This document shows positions 15,762 through 39,783 of a DNA stretch of 64,000 nt, one piece after another (the stretch's first letter is position 1; every line of letters starts with the position of its first letter). A program made the position numbers and the translations under genes. Source of the stretch: Elusimicrobiota bacterium (lineage in GTDB: Bacteria > Elusimicrobiota > Elusimicrobia > UBA1565); contig JACPXC010000045.1 of the NCBI GenBank assembly GCA_016196755.1, forward strand, positions 124,001-188,000, read 5' to 3'. A model generated the notes under the pieces. That model was given only the letters and a program-made list of their open reading frames with translations, ran no database searches and was not told the DNA's origin.

Positions 15762-17369
15762 ATGAGATTTTCCTCTATAGGCAGAGCCGTTCTGGCTTCC
15801 TTGTTTGTCCCCGGACTCGCCGGTGCCAATACCCGGGTAGGGACTACTCCGATGGTCGGCGAGGCTGGCGTCGGCGGCGCCGGAACGGCTGGGGCGAGCG
15901 CCCGCGTCACGGGTCAGACGTTCACCCCCGGGGCCGGCTACGGCGGCTACAACGGCGGCTTGAGCGTCAGCGGCATCGTCAATCCGAATACTCCGACCGC
16001 GGTAGGCACGGGCGGCGCACCTCGCGCCGTGGCCGCGGCCGCGGACCCGCGCACCTCCTTGCCGCCCTCGGCCGCCTCCGTCGGCGCGCCTTCCCCCTCC
16101 GCGTTCGTCGGCCAGGGCGCCCCTGAGACCCGCCCCTCGGCGGCCCAGGCCGGAGCCGGCTCGATGGTCCCCGGCGGGACCCTGCCGCCGCCCGGAGACG
16201 CGCGCGCCGACAACCCGGCCGGCGGGATGTCGACCATCGGCGGCGCCATGAAGGGCCTCGATAACGCCAAGAAGGACGAGAGGGCCGGCCAGAGCGGCGC
16301 GGTCGGCGGCCATCTCGACAAGCTGTTCGATTTCTCGCGCGGCCGCGCCGGCGACTCCGCTCTGCCCACCGATTCCCCCTCCGCCGCCCACAACGCCGGC
16401 GCCTACGGCACCGCCGTCCAAGGCCTGCCCGACCCCAAGGTCGTCGGCGTGGCGCCGGCCCTGGCCAAGGTCCAGAGCCTGGCGCGCGGGGCCGAGCATG
16501 CCGACGCCCCTGCCCTCTACGGCAGGGCGGTGGACATCGCCCGCGAAGGCCTTCCCGAGCGCGAGGCCGCGGCCCGCGTCGCCGGCCTTAAGAAGGAAGC
16601 CGCCGTGCGCGCCCCCGCGGCCGTCAAGGATTTGACCGAGAAGGCCCTTAGCGCCGCCGCGGCCGGCCGCACCAGCGACGCCGCGCGCTTCGCCAAGAGC
16701 GTCCACGGCTGGGACGAACTGCTGCGCGCTCCCGGCCAGCCTTACGTCGAGAACGTCGGCGACGTGGCCCGGACCGTCCAGCACGTTCTGACGAACGCCC
16801 TCGAGAAGCCCGGCCGCGCCGCCCCGGCGCCGAAGATCCGCGTCGAGCAGGTCCGCGCCTCGGGCGGTCGCCCCGCCTTCGTCCGGGTCAAGTTCAAGCA
16901 CGCCAACGCGTCGGACGCCCCGATGCCGGTCGTCCCGCAGTCCCTGGCCTCGATGCTCGCCCTGCCCGAACTCAAGGGCTTCATGGCGCTCGACGGGCCT
17001 CTGGAGCTCGAAGGGTCGGGCATGGCCTCCGATTTCAACATGCGCTCCTCGGCCGGCGTCCTGAGCTCGGCGCGCGCCGCCATGGCCCAGGGCGGCTCTC
17101 TGTGGTCCGGCTTCTGGGTGGCGGCGCGGGCGTTGGGCGGGTCGGTCCTGTCGCTCTGGGACGAGCTCCGAGCCTTCCTCATCCGCGCGCTCCAGTCCCT
17201 CGGCATCCTGCGCGCCGCATTGCCGGCGGGCCCCGAGGTCGAAGCTCCTTCCGCGCAGGTCCTGGCCGAACTGCGGGCCCTGCCCGCCGAGCGCGCCGAG
17301 CGTCCCGCCCCGGCGGCCTCGGGCCTCGATGCCTTGGGCCTGGGCTATCGCGTCGTCTTGGCCCGTTGA
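15762..17369 (+). CDS. Large secreted Ala/Gly-rich protein, FD-x-x-R module
   Basis: A 535-residue protein with a signal peptide (IGRAVLASLFVPGLAGA, cleavage near residue 22). Gly/Ala/Pro-rich sequence follows to about residue 170, then a short block HLDKLFDFSRGRAGDS that resembles the FDGAR block of the two PepSY proteins at 34599 and 37091. Residues about 215-300 are helical (ALYGRAVDIAREGLPEREAAARV). A more ordered C-terminal part (about 340-500) contains KIRVEQVRASGGRPAFVRVKFKHA. It is translationally linked to the next gene, whose TTG start overlaps its stop. No known family; probably periplasmic. Confidence 0.75.
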   Translation: MRFSSIGRAVLASLFVPGLAGANTRVGTTPMVGEAGVGGAGTAGASARVTGQTFTPGAGYGGYNGGLSVSGIVNPNTPTAVGTGGAPRAVAAAADPRTSLPPSAASVGAPSPSAFVGQGAPETRPSAAQAGAGSMVPGGTLPPPGDARADNPAGGMSTIGGAMKGLDNAKKDERAGQSGAVGGHLDKLFDFSRGRAGDSALPTDSPSAAHNAGAYGTAVQGLPDPKVVGVAPALAKVQSLARGAEHADAPALYGRAVDIAREGLPEREAAARVAGLKKEAAVRAPAAVKDLTEKALSAAAAGRTSDAARFAKSVHGWDELLRAPGQPYVENVGDVARTVQHVLTNALEKPGRAAPAPKIRVEQVRASGGRPAFVRVKFKHANASDAPMPVVPQSLASMLALPELKGFMALDGPLELEGSGMASDFNMRSSAGVLSSARAAMAQGGSLWSGFWVAARALGGSVLSLWDELRAFLIRALQSLGILRAALPAGPEVEAPSAQVLAELRALPAERAERPAPAASGLDALGLGYRVVLAR

Positions 17370-31402: not shown

Positions 31403-31457
31403 TTGATGTCGAATTTTAATCATGCTATGATTTTTCTATTGAGACTTAGTCTCAATA
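31403..31457 (+). promoter_or_regulatory. Iron-operon promoter with Fur-type operator
   Basis: TTGATG (31403-31408), 17 bp, TATGAT (31426-31431). A perfect 21-bp palindrome covers the expected transcription start (31437-31457); its core is TGAGACT-T-AGTCTCA, the 7-1-7 geometry of Fur boxes. A repressor bound here would block RNA polymerase, so transcription is expected when iron is low. A GGAGAGG ribosome binding site precedes the first ATG at 31491. Confidence 0.65.
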
Positions 31458-31490
31458 AGAAATCGACGCATCGAGGCCGGAGAGGACGCG

Positions 31491-31715
31491 ATGAGGATTG
31501 AGTTGGCGGAGCAGGGCGAAGGAGCGGTCTGGCTGTGCGGGGAATGTGACGACGTCCATATGCGCTGGCAGAACTGGGTGCTAACGCTCACCCGGGAACA
31601 GTTCTCCGGCCTTTCCCGCATGGCCTCTGCGGCCGAACTGAAGCTCGCGGGCGCGCCGGGGCCCGATTCGAGCAAAACGGCCTGCGGCCATCGGGGGCGG
31701 ACTTGGCTCCAATAG
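31491..31715 (+). CDS. Small first protein of the siderophore operon
   Basis: A 74-residue protein (MRIELAEQGEGAVWLCGECD, then MRWQNWVLTLTREQFSGLS). It has a CxxC pair that could bind metal or be redox active, and a third Cys near the end (TACGHRGRTW). The start is supported by GGAGAGG and by the Fur-type promoter just upstream. It overlaps the start region of the IucA/IucC gene by 13 bp. Small proteins with a similar WxCxxC and Trp-rich stretch occur in bacterial iron loci, but I cannot name a family. Confidence 0.65.
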   Translation: MRIELAEQGEGAVWLCGECDDVHMRWQNWVLTLTREQFSGLSRMASAAELKLAGAPGPDSSKTACGHRGRTWLQ

Positions 31716-33475
31716 AAGAGAGCCGCGGCGAAGTCATGGGGCGCGTCTTCAACGCGCTCTGGCGCGAGAGCTTCGCCAGCAGCCGCCGCCGGGCGCGCGT
31801 CTGCGGCGAGGGCGGCGGGGACTTCGCGGTCGTGACCCTGGCCGGCGGGGTCGAGGTCATGGGACGGCTCGATGACGCCCGCTCGCTCGAGACCCTGTCC
31901 ACCTCCCCTCCTTATTATGTCCGCTTCCGGCAATCCGGGAGCATCGAGGAGCTCACCGACGCCGACCAGTTGGCGGCCCTCCTGCCGGCGGGCCCGGATT
32001 CGGTCTCTCGTCTCTGCGAGGAAGTCGGCCAGAGCGTCCGCAATATGGCGATCTTCCTTGAGCGCAGCGACGAGCGGCTCGGGGAGCTGCCGGGCCGCCC
32101 GGGTCAGGGCGCCCTGGCCCGGGCGTTCGGCCGCGCGCGCTTCCGCGGCTGCCGGCCCGAGGAGTACATCGAGAGCTGGGTCCTGCGCGGGCATGCCCTG
32201 CACCCCGGCGCGAAGACCCGCCTGGGATTTTCCGCCGCCGACGTCGAGCGCTACTCGCCGGAGTTGGGCCGCCAGGTCGGCCTGCGCTTCATGGCCGTGC
32301 GCAAGACCCATCTGGTCGACAGCCGTTCCGTCTCTGCCGACTCCTCCTACCCCGCGGCCTGGGCCGCTGCCTTCGAGGACTCCTTCCGGCGGCGTTCCCT
32401 CCCCTCATCGGACTTCGAGGTATTGCCGGTGCACCCGTGGCAGTGGAGCAACGTGCTCAAGGGGATGTTCAAGGCCGAGCTCGAGAGGGGCGTCCTCGTC
32501 CCGCTGGACGCCGTCGTCGAGGCCCAGCCGCTGGCGTCGCTGCGGACGCTGGCCCCCCTGGGCGACCTCCACGCCCCCCAGCTCAAACTGCCGCTGGCGA
32601 TCCAGGCGACAAGCGTCCCCCGGACCATCACCCCCCCCACCGTCGAGAACAGCCCGCGGCTGGCCGACCTGCTGGGGCGGATCCTGGACCGGACCCCGGA
32701 CCTCGCCCGCCTGGTCTCGCTCTCCCCGGAGACGCGCGGCGCGCACTTCCAGGAGCCCGGGGCGCCTGCCGACGCCGAGAAGTCCCGCCACCTCACCATG
32801 CTCCTGCGCCGCCGTCCCGAGCGCCGTCCCGGCACGTGGCTGGTGCCGAACGTCGTCCTGGCCGAGCTGTCCCCGCTGGATGGGCGCCCGTTCGTGAGCG
32901 AGCTCGTCGAGCGGGCCGGCGGGGATGCCCTGTCCTATTTCCGTGACTATGTCCTGCTCTCATCGCGGGTCACGCTGGGCTTGCTGGCCCGCTTCGGCCT
33001 GGGGATCGAGGCGCACGCGCAGAACACCCTGACCTATCACCGCCGGGGGACGCCGGCCGACTGGGTGCTCCGCGACTTCGGGGGCATGCGCATCGACCGG
33101 CGACGCCTGAGGGAGGCCGGCCTCGACGTCGAACTCCACCCCGGCACCTTGATGGAGACGCGCGACGACCTGGAGCTGGTCTCGAGCTTTCACCATTGCC
33201 TGTTGCAGGGGAACCTCGCCCCGCTGGCCGGCGCGCTGGCGGGCGCCTTCGGGGTCCCCGAGGCGGAGCTCTGGCGCGCCGGCCGCGAGGCCGCGCGGGC
33301 GGCCTGGGAGGAGCAGCGCGCGTTTATCGGGGGTGAGCGCGGCGACGAGCTCGGAGGCCTTCTGTTCCGTCCCCGCGTCGTGGTCAAGGCGTTGACGCGC
33401 ATGCGCCTGTCCGACGAGCCCTGGCGCGACGAGTTCTGCGAGGTCGAGAACCCGCTGGCGGACACGGTCTCTTGA
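31703..33475 (+). CDS. NRPS-independent siderophore synthetase (IucA/IucC family)
   Basis: A 590-residue adenylating ligase that joins a carboxylic acid such as citrate to an amine or hydroxylamine during siderophore assembly. Family blocks are EEYIESWVLRGHALHPGAKTRLGF, LPVHPWQWSNVL, LAIQATSVPRTITPP and the C-terminal IEAHAQNTLTYHRRG-VLRDFGGMR. The C-terminal FhuF-like/reductase-associated part runs to VVKALTRMRLSD. Either the TTG at 31703 or the ATG at 31736 could start it; the first keeps the N-terminal helix ESRGEVMGRVFNALWRES. Only one synthetase and no monooxygenase or decarboxylase gene is present, so the product is unclear. Confidence 0.93.
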   Translation: MAPIEESRGEVMGRVFNALWRESFASSRRRARVCGEGGGDFAVVTLAGGVEVMGRLDDARSLETLSTSPPYYVRFRQSGSIEELTDADQLAALLPAGPDSVSRLCEEVGQSVRNMAIFLERSDERLGELPGRPGQGALARAFGRARFRGCRPEEYIESWVLRGHALHPGAKTRLGFSAADVERYSPELGRQVGLRFMAVRKTHLVDSRSVSADSSYPAAWAAAFEDSFRRRSLPSSDFEVLPVHPWQWSNVLKGMFKAELERGVLVPLDAVVEAQPLASLRTLAPLGDLHAPQLKLPLAIQATSVPRTITPPTVENSPRLADLLGRILDRTPDLARLVSLSPETRGAHFQEPGAPADAEKSRHLTMLLRRRPERRPGTWLVPNVVLAELSPLDGRPFVSELVERAGGDALSYFRDYVLLSSRVTLGLLARFGLGIEAHAQNTLTYHRRGTPADWVLRDFGGMRIDRRRLREAGLDVELHPGTLMETRDDLELVSSFHHCLLQGNLAPLAGALAGAFGVPEAELWRAGREAARAAWEEQRAFIGGERGDELGGLLFRPRVVVKALTRMRLSDEPWRDEFCEVENPLADTVS

Positions 33476-34602
33476 GCTTGCTCGCCCTCTGCCTCTGCCA
33501 GCTGGCCGCCATCTGCGCCTACGAGATGGGCACTCCGTTTATCCCCGCGCTGCTCGCTTCTATGGGCGTCTCGGAGACGGGCGCCTTGATGCGCTGGACC
33601 GGCTGGGCGGACGCCGCCGCGCTCGGCCTCGGCCTGTTCTCGACGCCCTTCTGGGCGCGGCTCGGGGACGCGCGCGGCCGGAAGCTCATGCTCCTGCGCG
33701 CGCACCTGGGGCTGGGCGCGGCGCTCTTCGCCGTCTCTCTGGCGCGCACCCCGCTCGAGGTCGTGCTGGCGCGGGCCCTGCAGGGGGCATTGGCCGGAGT
33801 CACCGCCGCCACGCTGGCGGCCGTGTCCGAGGAGGAGCGGGCCTCTTCCCGGATGGGGTGGGTGCAGTCGTCGTGCCTGGCCGGCGCCTTCATCGGCCCT
33901 TTCCTCGGCGCCCTGGTCCTGCGCTTCGCCGCCCCCGCGGCGGTCTTTCGCGCCGGCGCCGTCCTCTGCCTGCTTTCTCTGCTCGCCACGGCGCTGTTCG
34001 TCGGAGAGCCGGCTCGGAAGGCGGCCGAGGTCGCGGAACCTCTCCCCCCAGCCCGCGGCTTCGGGGCGGCGGGCGCGCTGGCGGCCTGGATCTTCGCCTG
34101 GCGGGCGCTGGAGGACCCGGTACTCCCGGTCTACGCGCGTCAACTGGCCGGCGAGAGCTCCTGGGCGCTGTGGATGGCCGTCATCCTCGGGGCCTCGCGC
34201 CTGACGGCGATGCTCTCGGCCCCGGCCTGGGGGCGCTGGGCGGACCGCCTGGGTCCGGAGCGCGTCCTGCGCGCCGCGGTCTGCGGGACGGCCGCGCTGA
34301 CCTTAGCCCAGCTCCTGGCCCGCGGGCCGCTGGAGCTGGCCTTGGTCCGGGCCGCGCTCGGGCTCTTCGCCGGGGCCATCGCCACCTGCGTCTACGCCGA
34401 GGCCGTCGGACGCGTCCCGGGCCGCCGTCGCGGCGAGGCCGTGGCGTTGGCGGTCACGGGCGGCCGCCTCGGCGATTGCGTGGGCAGCGCGGGCGGCGGC
34501 GTCCTCGCCGCGGCGGCCGGCGTGCCCGGCCTGTTCGCGGCGATGGGCGCGGGACTCCTGAGCTCGCTCCTCCTCATCCGGCGTCCCCCCGAGACGGCAT
34601 GA
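33472..34602 (+). CDS. MFS transporter, probable siderophore exporter
   Basis: A 376-residue MFS protein with 10-12 helices. The helix 2-3 loop has the motif FWARLGDARGRKLML and the helix 8-9 loop the mirror motif WGRWADRLGPERVL. It starts at TTG in a 4-bp overlap with the synthetase stop, and overlaps the next gene start in the same way. MFS exporters commonly sit beside NIS synthetases and release the finished siderophore, so that is the likely job. Substrate specificity cannot be read from sequence. Confidence 0.88.
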   Translation: MSLLALCLCQLAAICAYEMGTPFIPALLASMGVSETGALMRWTGWADAAALGLGLFSTPFWARLGDARGRKLMLLRAHLGLGAALFAVSLARTPLEVVLARALQGALAGVTAATLAAVSEEERASSRMGWVQSSCLAGAFIGPFLGALVLRFAAPAAVFRAGAVLCLLSLLATALFVGEPARKAAEVAEPLPPARGFGAAGALAAWIFAWRALEDPVLPVYARQLAGESSWALWMAVILGASRLTAMLSAPAWGRWADRLGPERVLRAAVCGTAALTLAQLLARGPLELALVRAALGLFAGAIATCVYAEAVGRVPGRRRGEAVALAVTGGRLGDCVGSAGGGVLAAAAGVPGLFAAMGAGLLSSLLLIRRPPETA

Positions 34603-37094
34603 CGCGCAAGCTGCTCTTCCGTTGGCACGTGGGGCTGGGCAAGTTCGGCGGCGCGCTGATCCTGATTTGGGCCCTCAGCGGCACCGTCATGACGGTCCAG
34701 CCGATGCTCCTGCGCGCCCTCGACCCCGGCTTCCCGTCCCTGCGCGCCGAGCCCGCGGACCTGGGCGCCTTCTCGGTCCCCCCGGCGCGCCTGGGATCCA
34801 AGACGGCCTCCGCGTCCCTTCGGACCTTCCGCGGACGGAGCTGGTACGAGCTGACCTTGGCGGACGGCGCCGTCGAGGCTTACGACTCCCGCACCGGCGC
34901 GCCGGTGGCCGCGCTGCTCAGCGAGGCCGAGGTCGTCGTGGGCTTGGCCGAGCGCCTGGCCGCCTCCCGATGGACGACCGGCGCCGCCGTCCTCATGGAC
35001 CGGCACGACGACCAATACCGGAAGGGACGCCTCCCGGTCTACAAGGTCCGCATGAGCGGGCCCGGCGCGGTGGTGCTCTACATCTCGGCGCGCGACGGGG
35101 GCGTCGAGTCGGTGACGACGCGCTGGTCGCGGCTCATCCGCTGGCTGGGCCTCGGCGTCCACACATGGAACTTCGCCGCCGTCATGCGCCGCCACGACGA
35201 TGAGCGTGGCTTGGCCCTGGCGGCCTTGGTCTCGGTGCCGCTGGCGGCGCTGGCTGCCATCGCCTACGCCTTGCTGGCCGCGCGCTCGCGCGGGAAGAAG
35301 GGGGCCGCCGCGGTCCTGGCGGGGCTGCTGGCTTTCCATGGCTCGGCCCCCCCGGCCCAGGCGGCCTTCATCGCCGTCAGGGCGGCCGGCCGCGCGGCGG
35401 CCGCGGCGCCGCCGGTCGCCCTGCCGCCCGTCGGCGTCGCCGCGGCTCCGCCTCTTGCTTCTCCCGCGGGACCTGCCGGCCTCCGGCTGCCGTCGCCGAG
35501 CCTGCCCGCTCTCTCGGTCCAGCCCGCGCTCGCCCTCGCCGCGGCCCGGGCCATTCCCGCCGCGGCCGAACCGGCGCGGGCCCTGCCGCGTTTGCCGGCG
35601 GAGGCCTCTCGCGCGGAGCCGGCCGGCGTTTTTGTCTCCGTGGAGCGTCTTTCTCCGGCGCGCGGTCCGGAGGGCCGGGGCCCCCGGGAAGGCTTCGCGG
35701 CGGCGTCGCGGATGTTCTTCGACGGGGCTCGTCGCCCGTCGGGCTCGACCGTCTCGCCCGTCGTCCCGGAACCCGGCCGGTCCGAGTCCCAGCCGCTCGG
35801 GCGGCCGCCCGTGGCGGCGGAGCCCCCCGCCGCCGCCGTGCCTCCGCCTGCCCCGGCGGGCGTCCCCGACGGCAAGGGGATCTGGGGGCTTTACATCACC
35901 CACGCCGTCCACATAGCCAGCCTCGCCCTCGTGTGGCGGATCGCCTGGCCGCTGTTCGTGCTCGAGGTCGCCGGCAAGGGCGGGCTGGGCCTGCTCGGCA
36001 CCGTCGACCAGTTCTCGGACCTGGCCCTCGGCGTGGCCGCGGGCGTCGTCATCGACCGCCTGCTGCCGTCGCGCTCGATGGCGGCGGCCGCGCTCGTGCG
36101 CGCCGGGGTCGGCGCGGCCCTGGCGGCGGCCGCCGCGTGGTGGTCCCCGGGGCTGCCCTTCCTGCTCGGCCTCTCGGCGGTCCATGCCTTCGCGATGACG
36201 GTCATCTATCTCGGCCAGGCGGCGGTGAGCCCCGCCGCGGCCGGCGGGGACGCCGAGCGCCTGCAGCGCCTCAACATAGTCTTGAAGCTCATCACCGTCG
36301 CCGTCGCCATCCCGGGGTCCTATGCCGGCGGCTGGCTGGTGGCGCACATCGGCACTCCGGCCGCCTTCGCGGCCTATGCCCTGCTCAACGCGCTGGTCCT
36401 GGCCCCGCTCTACGCCAAGCTGCTGCCGAGGGACCAGGCTCCCGAGCGCGCCGAGGCCGCCGGCCCGCCGCCGGCCGGCCTCGGGGAGGTCCTGCGCTTC
36501 ATCCTCGACGGCAGGGTCCTGCTCGGCCTCTTCGCCGCCACGGCCGCGGCCATGACCTTCGCGGAACCCTTCCGCAACACCGTCCTGCCGATCGTCGCCA
36601 AGGAGCTCCTGCGCGGCGGTCCGGTCCTGCTCGGGCACCTGATGACGGCGCTCTACGTCGGGCAGTGCCTGGGCGTCCTGGCCCTGCTCCGGTGGTCGAA
36701 AGCCATTGCCCCGCGCTGGTGGATCGCGCTGGCGGGGCTCGGGATGGCAGCGTCCTGGCTGCTGGTCCTGGTCCCGGCCTATCCGCCGATGATCTACGCC
36801 GCGGTCTTCCTCATGAGCCTGCTCACCCAGCCCGCCGCGACGATGATCAAGACCCTGCTCCAAAAAGAGACGGCGGAGCGGCGGCCCGAGCTCCTGGGGC
36901 GCGTCCTCGGCGTCCACCTGATGTTCTACGCGCTGGTGGCCGGCGGCGAGACCGCGCTCCTGGCATGGGGATTCTCCGCCTTCACCGGAGGGTTCTTGGC
37001 GCCTATCGTGCCGTTGGCCGTCGCGTACACCGGGCTGGCCGCCGTCGTCCTCGTCCTGGTCCTGACCGTCCTCAAGAAAGGAGACCTACGATGA
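34599..37094 (+). CDS. PepSY-MFS fusion membrane protein
   Basis: An 831-residue protein with three parts. Residues 1-230: a PepSY-TM unit with helix FRWHVGLGKFGGALILIWAL, a periplasmic PepSY domain (SWYELTLADGAVEAYDSRTG, YRKGRLPVYKVRMSGPG) and GVHTWNF followed by a helix. Residues about 235-425: a second signal-like segment (AVLAGLLAFHGSAPPAQA) and an Ala/Pro-rich linker with MFFDGARR. Residues about 430-831: an MFS-type half with 10-12 helices (IWGLYITHAVHIASLALVWRI, GVVIDRLLPSRSM). PepSY-TM proteins include ferric-siderophore reductases, so it may couple uptake to iron release; this is inference. It overlaps both neighbours by 4 bp. Confidence 0.85.
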   Translation: MTRKLLFRWHVGLGKFGGALILIWALSGTVMTVQPMLLRALDPGFPSLRAEPADLGAFSVPPARLGSKTASASLRTFRGRSWYELTLADGAVEAYDSRTGAPVAALLSEAEVVVGLAERLAASRWTTGAAVLMDRHDDQYRKGRLPVYKVRMSGPGAVVLYISARDGGVESVTTRWSRLIRWLGLGVHTWNFAAVMRRHDDERGLALAALVSVPLAALAAIAYALLAARSRGKKGAAAVLAGLLAFHGSAPPAQAAFIAVRAAGRAAAAAPPVALPPVGVAAAPPLASPAGPAGLRLPSPSLPALSVQPALALAAARAIPAAAEPARALPRLPAEASRAEPAGVFVSVERLSPARGPEGRGPREGFAAASRMFFDGARRPSGSTVSPVVPEPGRSESQPLGRPPVAAEPPAAAVPPPAPAGVPDGKGIWGLYITHAVHIASLALVWRIAWPLFVLEVAGKGGLGLLGTVDQFSDLALGVAAGVVIDRLLPSRSMAAAALVRAGVGAALAAAAAWWSPGLPFLLGLSAVHAFAMTVIYLGQAAVSPAAAGGDAERLQRLNIVLKLITVAVAIPGSYAGGWLVAHIGTPAAFAAYALLNALVLAPLYAKLLPRDQAPERAEAAGPPPAGLGEVLRFILDGRVLLGLFAATAAAMTFAEPFRNTVLPIVAKELLRGGPVLLGHLMTALYVGQCLGVLALLRWSKAIAPRWWIALAGLGMAASWLLVLVPAYPPMIYAAVFLMSLLTQPAATMIKTLLQKETAERRPELLGRVLGVHLMFYALVAGGETALLAWGFSAFTGGFLAPIVPLAVAYTGLAAVVLVLVLTVLKKGDLR

Positions 37095-39160
37095 CCGTTC
37101 TGAAGAACGCCGTCCGCCGCTCCCTGGCCGCGCTTTTGTGCGCCCTCTTCGCGCTGGCTGACTGCCCGCGGGCGTTCGCGCAGGCGCGCGCGGCCGTCCG
37201 GGCCGGCGCGTCCGCGCCGTCGGCCCTGCCGGCGCTGGCGCCGGCCGTCGGCGCGCGAACCGGGGCGGCCATGCTCCGCTATGCGGGCCTGCCCGGACCC
37301 TCCCTCGTCGTTCCCTCGTCGCCGATCCCGGCCGCCGCCGCGCCCCAAGCCGCCATCTCCGCCTTCACCGCGGCGGCCGCGGCTCTTCCTCCCGCGGCCG
37401 CCGCGGTCCGGGCGGCGCGGTCCTTGGCCGTGCCAAGGGAGCGCGCGGCGGTCCCCGTCGCGGACAGGGAGCCGCGCGCCGAGAAGTCCGCGGACGCCTC
37501 CCTGCGCGCGGCGGCCGAGGGCTCGAAGGGACCCTCCGCTTCCGCGGCCCTCCAGGGCGCCCTCTTCGACGGCGCTCGTCCGCGCCGGGACACGGACACG
37601 GTCCTGGTATCCGTGGCGCCAAGCGTTCCCGCGAGGAGCCTGCTCGGGCCGGCGGCCGCGGCGGCCGGGCTCGGCGCCGCCGGGCTGACGGCGGCCTGGG
37701 GGCTGAGCCATCTCTCGGCATCCGAGCTGCACGTTGGGTTCGGTTTGACCTTCGGCTGGATGGCGATGTGGCAGGCCGTCACGGGGACCTTGAGCCTCCT
37801 GCGCCCGGTCTTGCTCGAGAGCCTGGACCCCGCGCTGCCGGAGCAGGTCATGGCGGATTTCGAGTCCACCGCGTTCAGCGCGTCGCCCGCCGCGGCCGCG
37901 CGCGCCGCACTCGAGGCGTCCGGACCGGGGGCCAAGATCCGGACGATGACCCTCAGGACGGCGCCCACCTCGGGGCGCAAGCGCTGGTACGAGTTCGAGC
38001 TCGAGGACGGCCGGGTCGTCAATGTCCATGGGCGCACGGGGAAGGTCATCCGTTCGCCCCGCAGCCGGGCCTTCATCCTCGGCCAGGCCGAACGCTGGCT
38101 GGGGGGCAGCGCCTGGAAGGTCGAGGGCCGCCCCGAGCTTCTGACTGAGGACGGCGAGTATTACCGCAAGGGCGAGACCCCGCATTACCGGGTCCGGCTC
38201 TCCGGCCCCGGGGACCACGAGGCCTTCTTCTCGGCGCGAGATGGACGCCTGCTCGCCGTCCACTCCCGGCTCTCCCGCGTCCTGCGCTGGGTCGGGATGG
38301 GGCCGCATGCCTGGGGGATCAAGCTCCTGCGCCCGTACGACGCCTTGAAGCGCCTGGTCGCGCCGCTCCTGATGGGGGCTCCGCTCGTCATCATCGCGGC
38401 CACGGCGCTCTGGATGCGCGTCAGCGGCGGCTTCGCGCTCGACCTGCCGTCCTTGTCCTGGTCGGCCTACGAGTGGCACCGCTTCTTCGGCTCCTACGCG
38501 CTCTTCGCGCTGCTCACGGCCGCCACGACCGGGCCGCTGTCGATGCTCATTCCGCTGGTCAACAAGCATGTGACCCCGGCCCTGCCGCCCCTTCCGGCGG
38601 CCGACCCGGCCGGCTTCGTCCTGTCGCCCGCCGAGGCGGCCGAGGCGCTGGGGCCCGGCGCCGCGGTCAAGAGGATGGAGGCACGCTGGGGCGGCGGCGA
38701 GGCCTGGTACGCCTTCGTCCTGGCCGACGGCTCCGAGGCCGCGGTATCGGCGGCCGACGGAAAGCCTCTCCCTCCGGTGCGCGACGGCGCCTGGGTCTCG
38801 GCCGCCGCGGCGCGCTGGCTGGAGGGCTCCCCCTGGTCCCCGAAGGGCGCGGCGGTACCGGTGACGGAGTTCGACGACCTGTTCCGCAAGGGCGAGTTGC
38901 CCGCCTACCGCCTCGAGCTCGACGGTCCGGGAGGGTTCGTCGTGTACCTCTCGGCGCGCGACGGACGCCTCATCCCGACGTATGGGGAGTTCTCGCGCCT
39001 CGAGCGCTTCCTCGAGCGGCGGATCTACGGCGTACACGCCCTCGACTTCGGGTTCTTCAGCCGGCATGAGACCCTGCGCCGGGCGCTCCTCATCGCCTTC
39101 GTGACGGCTCCGGTGTTCCTGACCGTCCTCGCCGCCTTCGCGGCGCGGTGGGGGTTCTGA
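37091..39160 (+). CDS. Tandem PepSY-TM protein, candidate ferric-siderophore reductase
   Basis: A 689-residue protein. A signal peptide (RRSLAALLCALFALADCPRAFAQA) leads into an Ala/Pro-rich region to about residue 155 that ends with ALFDGARPRRDTD, like the linker of the previous protein. Two PepSY-TM units follow. The first has helix ELHVGFGLTFGWMAMW, domain RWYEFELEDGRVVNVHGRTG and PHAWGIKLLRPYDALKRL. The second has YEWHRFFGSYALFALL, domain AWYAFVLADGSEAAVSAADG and IYGVHALDFGFF. Paired histidines at helix ends could bind heme, as in PepSY reductases. ATGA overlap upstream, TGATG overlap downstream. Confidence 0.88.
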   Translation: MTVLKNAVRRSLAALLCALFALADCPRAFAQARAAVRAGASAPSALPALAPAVGARTGAAMLRYAGLPGPSLVVPSSPIPAAAAPQAAISAFTAAAAALPPAAAAVRAARSLAVPRERAAVPVADREPRAEKSADASLRAAAEGSKGPSASAALQGALFDGARPRRDTDTVLVSVAPSVPARSLLGPAAAAAGLGAAGLTAAWGLSHLSASELHVGFGLTFGWMAMWQAVTGTLSLLRPVLLESLDPALPEQVMADFESTAFSASPAAAARAALEASGPGAKIRTMTLRTAPTSGRKRWYEFELEDGRVVNVHGRTGKVIRSPRSRAFILGQAERWLGGSAWKVEGRPELLTEDGEYYRKGETPHYRVRLSGPGDHEAFFSARDGRLLAVHSRLSRVLRWVGMGPHAWGIKLLRPYDALKRLVAPLLMGAPLVIIAATALWMRVSGGFALDLPSLSWSAYEWHRFFGSYALFALLTAATTGPLSMLIPLVNKHVTPALPPLPAADPAGFVLSPAEAAEALGPGAAVKRMEARWGGGEAWYAFVLADGSEAAVSAADGKPLPPVRDGAWVSAAAARWLEGSPWSPKGAAVPVTEFDDLFRKGELPAYRLELDGPGGFVVYLSARDGRLIPTYGEFSRLERFLERRIYGVHALDFGFFSRHETLRRALLIAFVTAPVFLTVLAAFAARWGF

Positions 39161-39783
39161 TGAAGGCCCTCCTCTTCCTGTCCGCGTCGCTGGCGCAGGC
39201 CCAGATGCGGGCGTCCGTTGTGAGGCCGGCGCCCGCGCCGGCGGCTCCGGTCGTCGCGGCGCCGCTCTCCATCGTCTCGGTGCCCGCATCGGTGGCCGCG
39301 CCGCGCCTGACGCTCCCGGTCCTGACGGTGCCTATCCCGCTTTCGGCGGCGGGCTCCGCGGTGGCCCCTGAAGTCCGCGCAAGCGCCGAAGAATCCGCGT
39401 TAGCCAAGCTTGACGCGGCGGGCTTCGACCGAGAGTTGGCCGACCGCGGCCTGATCCTTTGGCGGCTGCTTCGCGCGAGCAAGCGCAGCGGGGAGCGGGC
39501 CTATCTCACCATCGGTCTGCCGCCCGACGGCCGTCCTTACGACCGCAAGGAGCCGGACCCCAGGCGCGAGAAAGAGCTCAAGACGCGCCTCGAGGCCTCG
39601 GAGAAAGACATCGCCGCGCTGGCGGCGCGCATCCTCGGCCTGCCCGAGGAGAATGTATCCGTCCGAGGCGACCTGGCGGAGTCCTGCTGCGGGGCGGGCT
39701 GCCAGGGCTGCCTGCGCGCCGACCCGGAGCAGTCCGAGAAGTGGACGGACTCCGCCCCGTTTCGCCGGGGCAAGCGGCGCTAG
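39160..39783 (+). CDS. Secreted protein with CCxxxCxxC motif
   Basis: A 207-residue protein, last in the iron operon. A short signal peptide (KALLFLSASLAQAQ) is followed by an Ala/Pro/Val-rich stretch to about residue 75. The helical part (EESALAKLDAAGFDRELADRGLILW, RREKELKTRLEASEKDIAALAARIL) precedes the motif ESCCGAGCQGCLRAD near the C terminus. The CCGxGCxxC pattern recalls the small oxidoreductase-like domain and could bind iron or an iron-sulfur centre. Start and previous stop share one base. Function unknown; being co-regulated with PepSY proteins hints at a role in iron handling in the periplasm. Confidence 0.75.
   Translation: MKALLFLSASLAQAQMRASVVRPAPAPAAPVVAAPLSIVSVPASVAAPRLTLPVLTVPIPLSAAGSAVAPEVRASAEESALAKLDAAGFDRELADRGLILWRLLRASKRSGERAYLTIGLPPDGRPYDRKEPDPRREKELKTRLEASEKDIAALAARILGLPEENVSVRGDLAESCCGAGCQGCLRADPEQSEKWTDSAPFRRGKRR

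Follow-up and report, generated by a model that had tools for sequence, protein, structure and literature searches.

A predicted Fur-controlled siderophore operon with linked PepSY genes in a member of the Elusimicrobiota

A compact locus in the genome of an Elusimicrobiota bacterium encodes one NRPS-independent-type (NIS) siderophore synthetase, an exporter and two PepSY proteins, and none of its six genes specifies a TonB receptor, ABC importer, oxygenase or decarboxylase, as a first-pass annotation had correctly read from the window (the whole 64,000-nucleotide stretch analysed). How, then, would iron bound by the secreted product return to the cell? The annotation proposed a self-contained scheme with iron freed by, or entering through, the PepSY and major facilitator superfamily (MFS) proteins. 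Here, using comparisons across the phylum, we propose that the locus is probably a Fur-repressed siderophore operon that makes and exports the chelator and frees its iron by reduction in the periplasm, with receptor and import genes lying elsewhere in the same regulon.

The six overlapping or coupled genes span 31491–39783, with a promoter and a perfect palindrome in front, all where they had originally been placed (Table 1). Because the genes overlap or almost abut, mostly through 4-nt overlaps of the ATGA/TTGA type, a single transcript very likely covers all six. The palindrome overlaps the expected transcription start site; when the intergenic sequence was shuffled 20,000 times, perfect palindromes with arms as long as these turned up in only 10 cases. 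The gene identities assigned from raw sequence were also borne out, including that of the PepSY part of the fusion, which is supported by its 35–38% identity to the neighbouring tandem PepSY protein.

Table 1. Features of the operon, in window coordinates.
Feature	Position	Strand	Basis
Sigma-70-like promoter: −35 TTGATG (31403–31408), 17-bp spacer, −10 TATGAT (31426–31431)	31403–31431	+	Read from sequence
Predicted Fur operator, perfect 21-bp palindrome TATTGAGACTTAGTCTCAATA	31437–31457	.	Same box at other iron genes, six-genome set
74-aa mini-protein, CxxCxxVH motif	31491–31715	+	Conserved; in other families, beside fur and fur-exbBD-tonB-receptor genes
NIS siderophore synthetase (IucA/IucC)	31703–33475 (alternative ATG start 31736)	+	Pfam, NCBIfam, tree, motifs
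MFS exporter, MdtG/FslB/LbtB type	33472–34602	+	Pfam, NCBIfam, BLAST
PepSY–MFS fusion, 831 aa	34599–37094	+	Pfam/NCBIfam, BLAST; conserved in G199 and G195
Tandem PepSY_TM protein, 689 aa, FoxB/PiuB architecture	37091–39160	+	Pfam, alignment, predicted secondary structure
Secreted CC protein, invariant CCGAGCxxCL (CCxxxCxxC)	39160–39783 (alternative GTG start 39148)	+	Alignment

A strict search for the palindrome (TTGAGACTNAGTCTCAA) returned only the operon's own copy, and a regulon became visible once the five central bases were left free. The resulting pattern (ATTGAGANNNNNTCTCAAT, at most two mismatches) matched 28 sites in six related genomes, compared with none for the reversed pattern used as a control and about 3.8 predicted from base composition. 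In the window genome, such sites lie in front of this operon, of a tonB–receptor pair (contig C41) and of an FTR1–cytochrome c gene paired with one for a Bfd ferredoxin (C13), and they flank a fur gene (C29) on both sides. In relatives, the operator precedes feoB and bacterioferritin and also accompanies fur, then apbE and a porin; another family of the class has a box of this type (ATTGAGACTGATTCTCAAT) ahead of a fur–porin–FMN_bind–PepSY–apbE–feoB cluster. Because the same operator recurs at fur, feoB, FTR1–Bfd, tonB–receptor and bacterioferritin genes, the palindrome is, as firmly as sequence comparison allows, a Fur box, in line with the Fur-type assignment first made. The operon is thereby placed inside a predicted Fur regulon readable across several families, and we regard a Fur box legible across families of this phylum as new. 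Counting against the preferred reading, the search located no such site close to feoB in the window genome itself.

A box of the Fur family can in principle be a PerR or Zur site, and the operator here might belong to either, in which case the operon could serve another metal or act mainly as a stress or export system rather than in iron scavenging. PepSY_TM proteins, moreover, can serve copper-related respiration, as does CrpH (PMC13038864). We consider such a role very improbable, given the identity of the genes that share the operator—fur, feoB, FTR1, bacterioferritin and tonB—and the bacterioferritin gene that adjoins the operon itself in relatives.

Among 341 genomes of the phylum searched for the synthetase and the tandem PepSY protein, an intact synthetase is encoded in three: the window genome and two members of another family of the same order (G199 and G195; synthetases 43–44% identical). 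A search for the same gene order in relatives, suggested with the original reading, found all six genes together in both. One additional gene (DUF6607) lies between the PepSY–MFS and CC genes in G199. In G195, the PepSY–MFS protein, the CC domain and the tandem PepSY protein are continuous in one 1477-aa open reading frame, either a genuine fusion or an assembly error. A genuine fusion would be difficult to reconcile with the signal peptide seen on the CC protein of the window genome and of G199, because MFS proteins normally have a cytoplasmic C terminus. A further genome, G196, keeps the operator, the mini-gene, a 117-codon stump covering only the N-terminal part of the synthetase and an adjoining bacterioferritin gene, and its locus reads as a decayed remnant of the operon. 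The synthetase was found neither in two genomes of the same genus nor in any other genome examined from the same family, and its distribution is thus patchy; the operon extends predicted NIS siderophore synthesis to a phylum in which so few genomes retain an intact enzyme. Strong homologues of the tandem PepSY protein are confined to the same three of 341 genomes, in a search limited to a handful of scored candidates in each genome, which could miss a very divergent copy. Other PepSY_TM subfamilies are represented in additional genomes of the phylum; within the tandem subfamily, linkage to siderophore genes is strict, and no PepSY gene of this kind was found in a relative lacking them, the finding that was to have refuted the original reading.

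The synthetase matches the Pfam models for IucA_IucC (8e-52) and the FhuF-like C-terminal domain (3e-18), and its synthetase motifs are intact, with HPWQ, S/RT, K, EAHxQN and RDxGG invariant. In a tree, it clusters with LbtA of Legionella and the single-NIS enzymes of rhizobia (87/90), at an open fork where branches are long. Its gene directly adjoins that of the exporter, an MFS_1 protein in Pfam whose best and second-best NCBIfam models are E. coli MdtG and FslB, respectively, and which matches Legionella LbtB in BLAST (1.9e-13). In E. coli, one NIS enzyme together with one MFS protein of this type is enough for rhizoferrin to be produced from citrate and putrescine and exported (PMC7857480). 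It is very probable that the operon serves to make an iron chelator and release it from the cell; we predict a citrate-type product, possibly rhizoferrin-like. We go no further than this because, although the best NCBIfam model for the window synthetase is FslA (169.5 bits, below the cut-off of 1000), the enzymes of the three genomes score 169, 119 and 117 bits against it, the latter two falling below LbtA (323) and the rhizobial enzyme (285). It is quite possible that the product is another citrate or dicarboxylate amide, built from a different amine or amino acid: the FslA scores and long tree branches are consistent with this, and the cluster of the rhizobial enzyme also contains cysteine-synthase-like, octopine-dehydrogenase-like and PLP-enzyme genes. 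Arguing for the rhizoferrin-like product instead, the operon has no amino-acid precursor genes, its exporter is of the LbtB/FslB type and the window genome encodes, elsewhere, a biosynthetic arginine decarboxylase (SpeA; 833.9 bits, cut-off 369).

The same core is familiar from the NIS–MFS pair of Ralstonia pickettii, lbtABCU of Legionella and fsl/fig of Francisella, in which a single NIS gene is likewise directly followed by an MdtG/LbtB-type MFS gene; rhizoferrin and legiobactin loci also resemble the operon in having no precursor oxygenase. No PepSY genes are found among the genes of these loci that we compared or that are cited, and a literature search returned no report of PepSY together with rhizoferrin. 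Beyond these loci, the operon has two PepSY proteins, the CxxC mini-protein and the CC protein, with a TonB receptor in the regulon. Legionella additionally has LbtC and LbtU, neither of which has a counterpart here.

By alignment and predicted secondary structure, the tandem PepSY protein repeats a TM–PepSY–TM layout twice, as in FoxB, after a signal peptide and an Ala/Pro-rich leader. An invariant histidine lies by each membrane helix (H214, H406, H463 and H649), the positions being read with the published histidine rule (PMC10866019). The match to PepSY_TM (PF03929) is 2.5e-6, with 28.0 bits for the protein alone against a gathering score of 28.8, rising to 35.8 bits with its frame neighbours; the G195 and G199 homologues exceed the cut-off. 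An AlphaFold model of the core was poor (pLDDT 59), and Foldseek with this weak model retrieved the single PepSY proteins YpeB and YpmB, FoxB (7ABW) not being among the matches; PDB sequence profiles of the tandem and PepSY–MFS proteins gave nothing relevant. FoxB-type proteins reduce ferrisiderophores through two His-ligated haems (PMC13038864; PMC10866019), and the PepSY_TM ferrisiderophore reductases FoxB, PiuB, FpvG and HiuB are iron-regulated, as is predicted here (PMC10866019, PMC13001220, PMC13038864). Unlike them, the tandem protein is encoded within a biosynthetic operon without its receptor, and it is remote from them in sequence, with a long Ala/Pro-rich leader. For Caulobacter, the Hiu proposal has Feo take up the Fe(II) so released (PMC13001220); a similar pairing here is supported by the cluster described above, which comes from the same class and joins PepSY and feoB in one unit behind an operator of this kind. 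Against the preferred reading, no electron donor was identified for the proposed PepSY reduction.

Contrary to the original description, the operon is not self-contained. Outside it, the window genome encodes TonB and a receptor as well as the FTR1–cytochrome c/Bfd unit, both behind the shared operator, and also FeoB, away from the operon, and the arginine decarboxylase. Two further TonB receptor genes or fragments are present, one adjoining a second PepSY_TM gene, and the G199 operon has a TonB receptor gene immediately upstream. From these locations, the operon would provide synthesis, export and reduction, with entry across both membranes encoded elsewhere, and iron need not pass through the PepSY and MFS proteins at all. 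Of the scheme first proposed, a Fur-controlled siderophore operon with linked PepSY genes is supported and self-containment is not; for iron entry, reduction followed by Fe(II) uptake through FTR1 or FeoB is simpler. A TonB-independent route of the Legionella type (LbtU/LbtC) had been considered for the missing receptor and was dropped once the tonB–receptor operon with the same operator was found. The absence of an ABC importer extends, for the FecCD family, to the whole window genome, in which no FecCD-type permease was found; one is present in 13 of 14 control genomes.

The PepSY–MFS fusion comprises a TM–PepSY–TM module (residues ~1–235) and an MFS part (~430–831) joined by an Ala/Pro-rich linker with an internal signal-peptide-like stretch. 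Pfam detects MFS_1 and the PepSY module is invisible to it, yet this module resembles both modules of the tandem protein (BLAST E-values down to 1e-30). For the MFS part, NCBIfam gave only TIGR00900, an efflux-type family, and BLAST gave no significant match to Legionella LbtC. The fusion, which has no relative in the plasmid collection searched, may couple reduction to transport, or recycle or re-export the apo-siderophore. We think it doubtful that it acts as an inner-membrane importer, its reductase half-module feeding an MFS permease for the siderophore or freed iron in place of ABC importers. The missing FecCD importer would fit such a role, as would conservation of the fusion in all three genomes, the G195 reading frame, which suggests a physical complex, and the precedent of FptX as a single-subunit permease for pyochelin (PMC10866019); the efflux-type family assignment and the lack of detectable similarity to LbtC argue the other way, and FeoB and FTR1 already give Fe(II) entry. 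Somewhat less probable still is a one-chain reductase–permease, complexed with the tandem PepSY and CC proteins and again replacing ABC importers, in which a haem-bearing PepSY half-module would reduce the ferric complex at the mouth of the MFS part, coupled to transport of iron or of recycled apo-siderophore. PepSY and a permease serve one siderophore elsewhere too, as in the pyochelin locus with FptC (PepSY) and FptX (a 12-TM single-subunit permease), and RhtX (PMC10866019). FptC and FptX are separate polypeptides, whereas here PepSY and MFS are in one chain; we count the fusion as new, and as a natural construct it makes the link between PepSY reduction and transport directly testable.

From the observed gene content, conservation, shared operator, linkage and partner genes, we infer how the preferred reading, that of synthesis, export and reductive release, would run biochemically, what it would yield and what the fusion, mini-protein and CC protein would contribute to it. 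Under iron shortage, Fur would leave the palindrome, and the single NIS enzyme would join citrate to an available amine, putrescine derived from the SpeA product giving rhizoferrin. The LbtB/FslB-type MFS protein would export the product, and the ferric complex would return through a TonB-dependent receptor. The FoxB-like tandem PepSY protein would then pass electrons through two His-ligated haems to reduce the bound Fe(III) in the periplasm, with Fe(II) entering via FTR1 or FeoB. The fusion would most likely support this reductive step by moving or recycling the siderophore beside the reductase.

The operon is a new arrangement of known parts, every one of which has known kin. NIS–MFS pairs and PepSY-bearing siderophore clusters have been described; conservation of these six genes as one unit is new. 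In Acinetobacter, the baumannoferrin cluster (bfn) likewise combines NIS enzymes, transport genes and a PepSY protein (BfnJ), together with a (2Fe-2S) utilisation protein; it is larger, with several biosynthetic genes and a TonB receptor inside, and the part of the report cited here does not mention a PepSY–MFS fusion (PMC10483418).

Neither of the two remaining proteins has a significant Pfam match. A model of the CC protein gave scattered weak matches (E of at least 0.009), with the tautomerase superfamily first and KH and metal-binding MamM domains among the rest, and we therefore claim no fold for it. A homologue of the CC protein in another genome (G181) has a neighbourhood without recognised iron genes. 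For the mini-protein, an assignment to DUF6686 (PF20391) was rejected at 15.2 bits against a gathering score of 23.9. In other families, its gene adjoins fur (G007) and lies inside a fur–exbB–exbD–tonB–receptor stretch (G161), positions from which it likely has a general part in iron homeostasis, perhaps as a small sensor of metals or redox state. The CxxCxxVH mini-protein would be a previously unrecognised component of iron homeostasis, and we count both the family and its link to Fur/TonB loci as new.

The CxxCxxVH mini-protein belongs to a small, conserved protein family linked with iron genes: in two genomes of other families, G161 and G007, fur adjoins its homologues. In the window genome (G000), the operator of the siderophore operon also precedes a unit in which an FTR1–cytochrome c fusion is followed by a Bfd-type ferredoxin. 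Elsewhere in this genome, a second PepSY_TM gene and its neighbouring receptor, the latter broken off by the end of contig C58, are a FoxA/FoxB-like pair. The PepSY protein of the FeoB cluster in G007 contains a BNR-like insert, and the cluster as a whole looks like a flavin/haem route in which iron is reduced ahead of FeoB.

Coordinates of the iron-related features
Feature	Genome	Position	Remark
Mini-protein homologue locus	G161	L134:5669-11077	within a fur-mini-exbB-exbD-tonB-receptor stretch
Mini-protein homologue locus	G007	L133:6683-7860	adjoins fur
FTR1 permease-cytochrome c domain fusion, then Bfd-type ferredoxin	G000, C13	L063:918-3097	
Second PepSY_TM gene, adjoining receptor	G000	L075:3868-5207	C58 contig end
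fur-porin-FMN_bind-PepSY-ApbE-FeoB cluster	G007, C13	L137:3211-9527	Fur-type palindrome ahead
Long Ala/Pro-rich leaders	G000	window 35300-35880 and 37170-37690	
PepSY-MFS, CC domain and tandem PepSY in a single 1477-aa frame	G195	L020:11785-16218	

Each Ala/Pro-rich leader of the operon's PepSY proteins comes after a signal-peptide-like stretch with a terminal 'FDG' box. One of the two is internal to the PepSY-MFS fusion and, if exported, would be at odds with normal MFS topology; the leader region of the tandem PepSY protein also matched a protein of a further genome, G203. In the apparent triple fusion of G195, both signal peptides are missing at the joints. Immediately after this frame lies an ORF that appeared ATP-grasp-like by eye (L020, about 16220-17195); its product might attach a further substrate to the siderophore, or it might have no connection with the operon. 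In G199, the operon is preceded by an AbiE-type-like gene pair and a serine-recombinase-like gene (L019:2291-3917 and L076:6338-7933), all judged by eye, so that this copy may be located on a mobile island.
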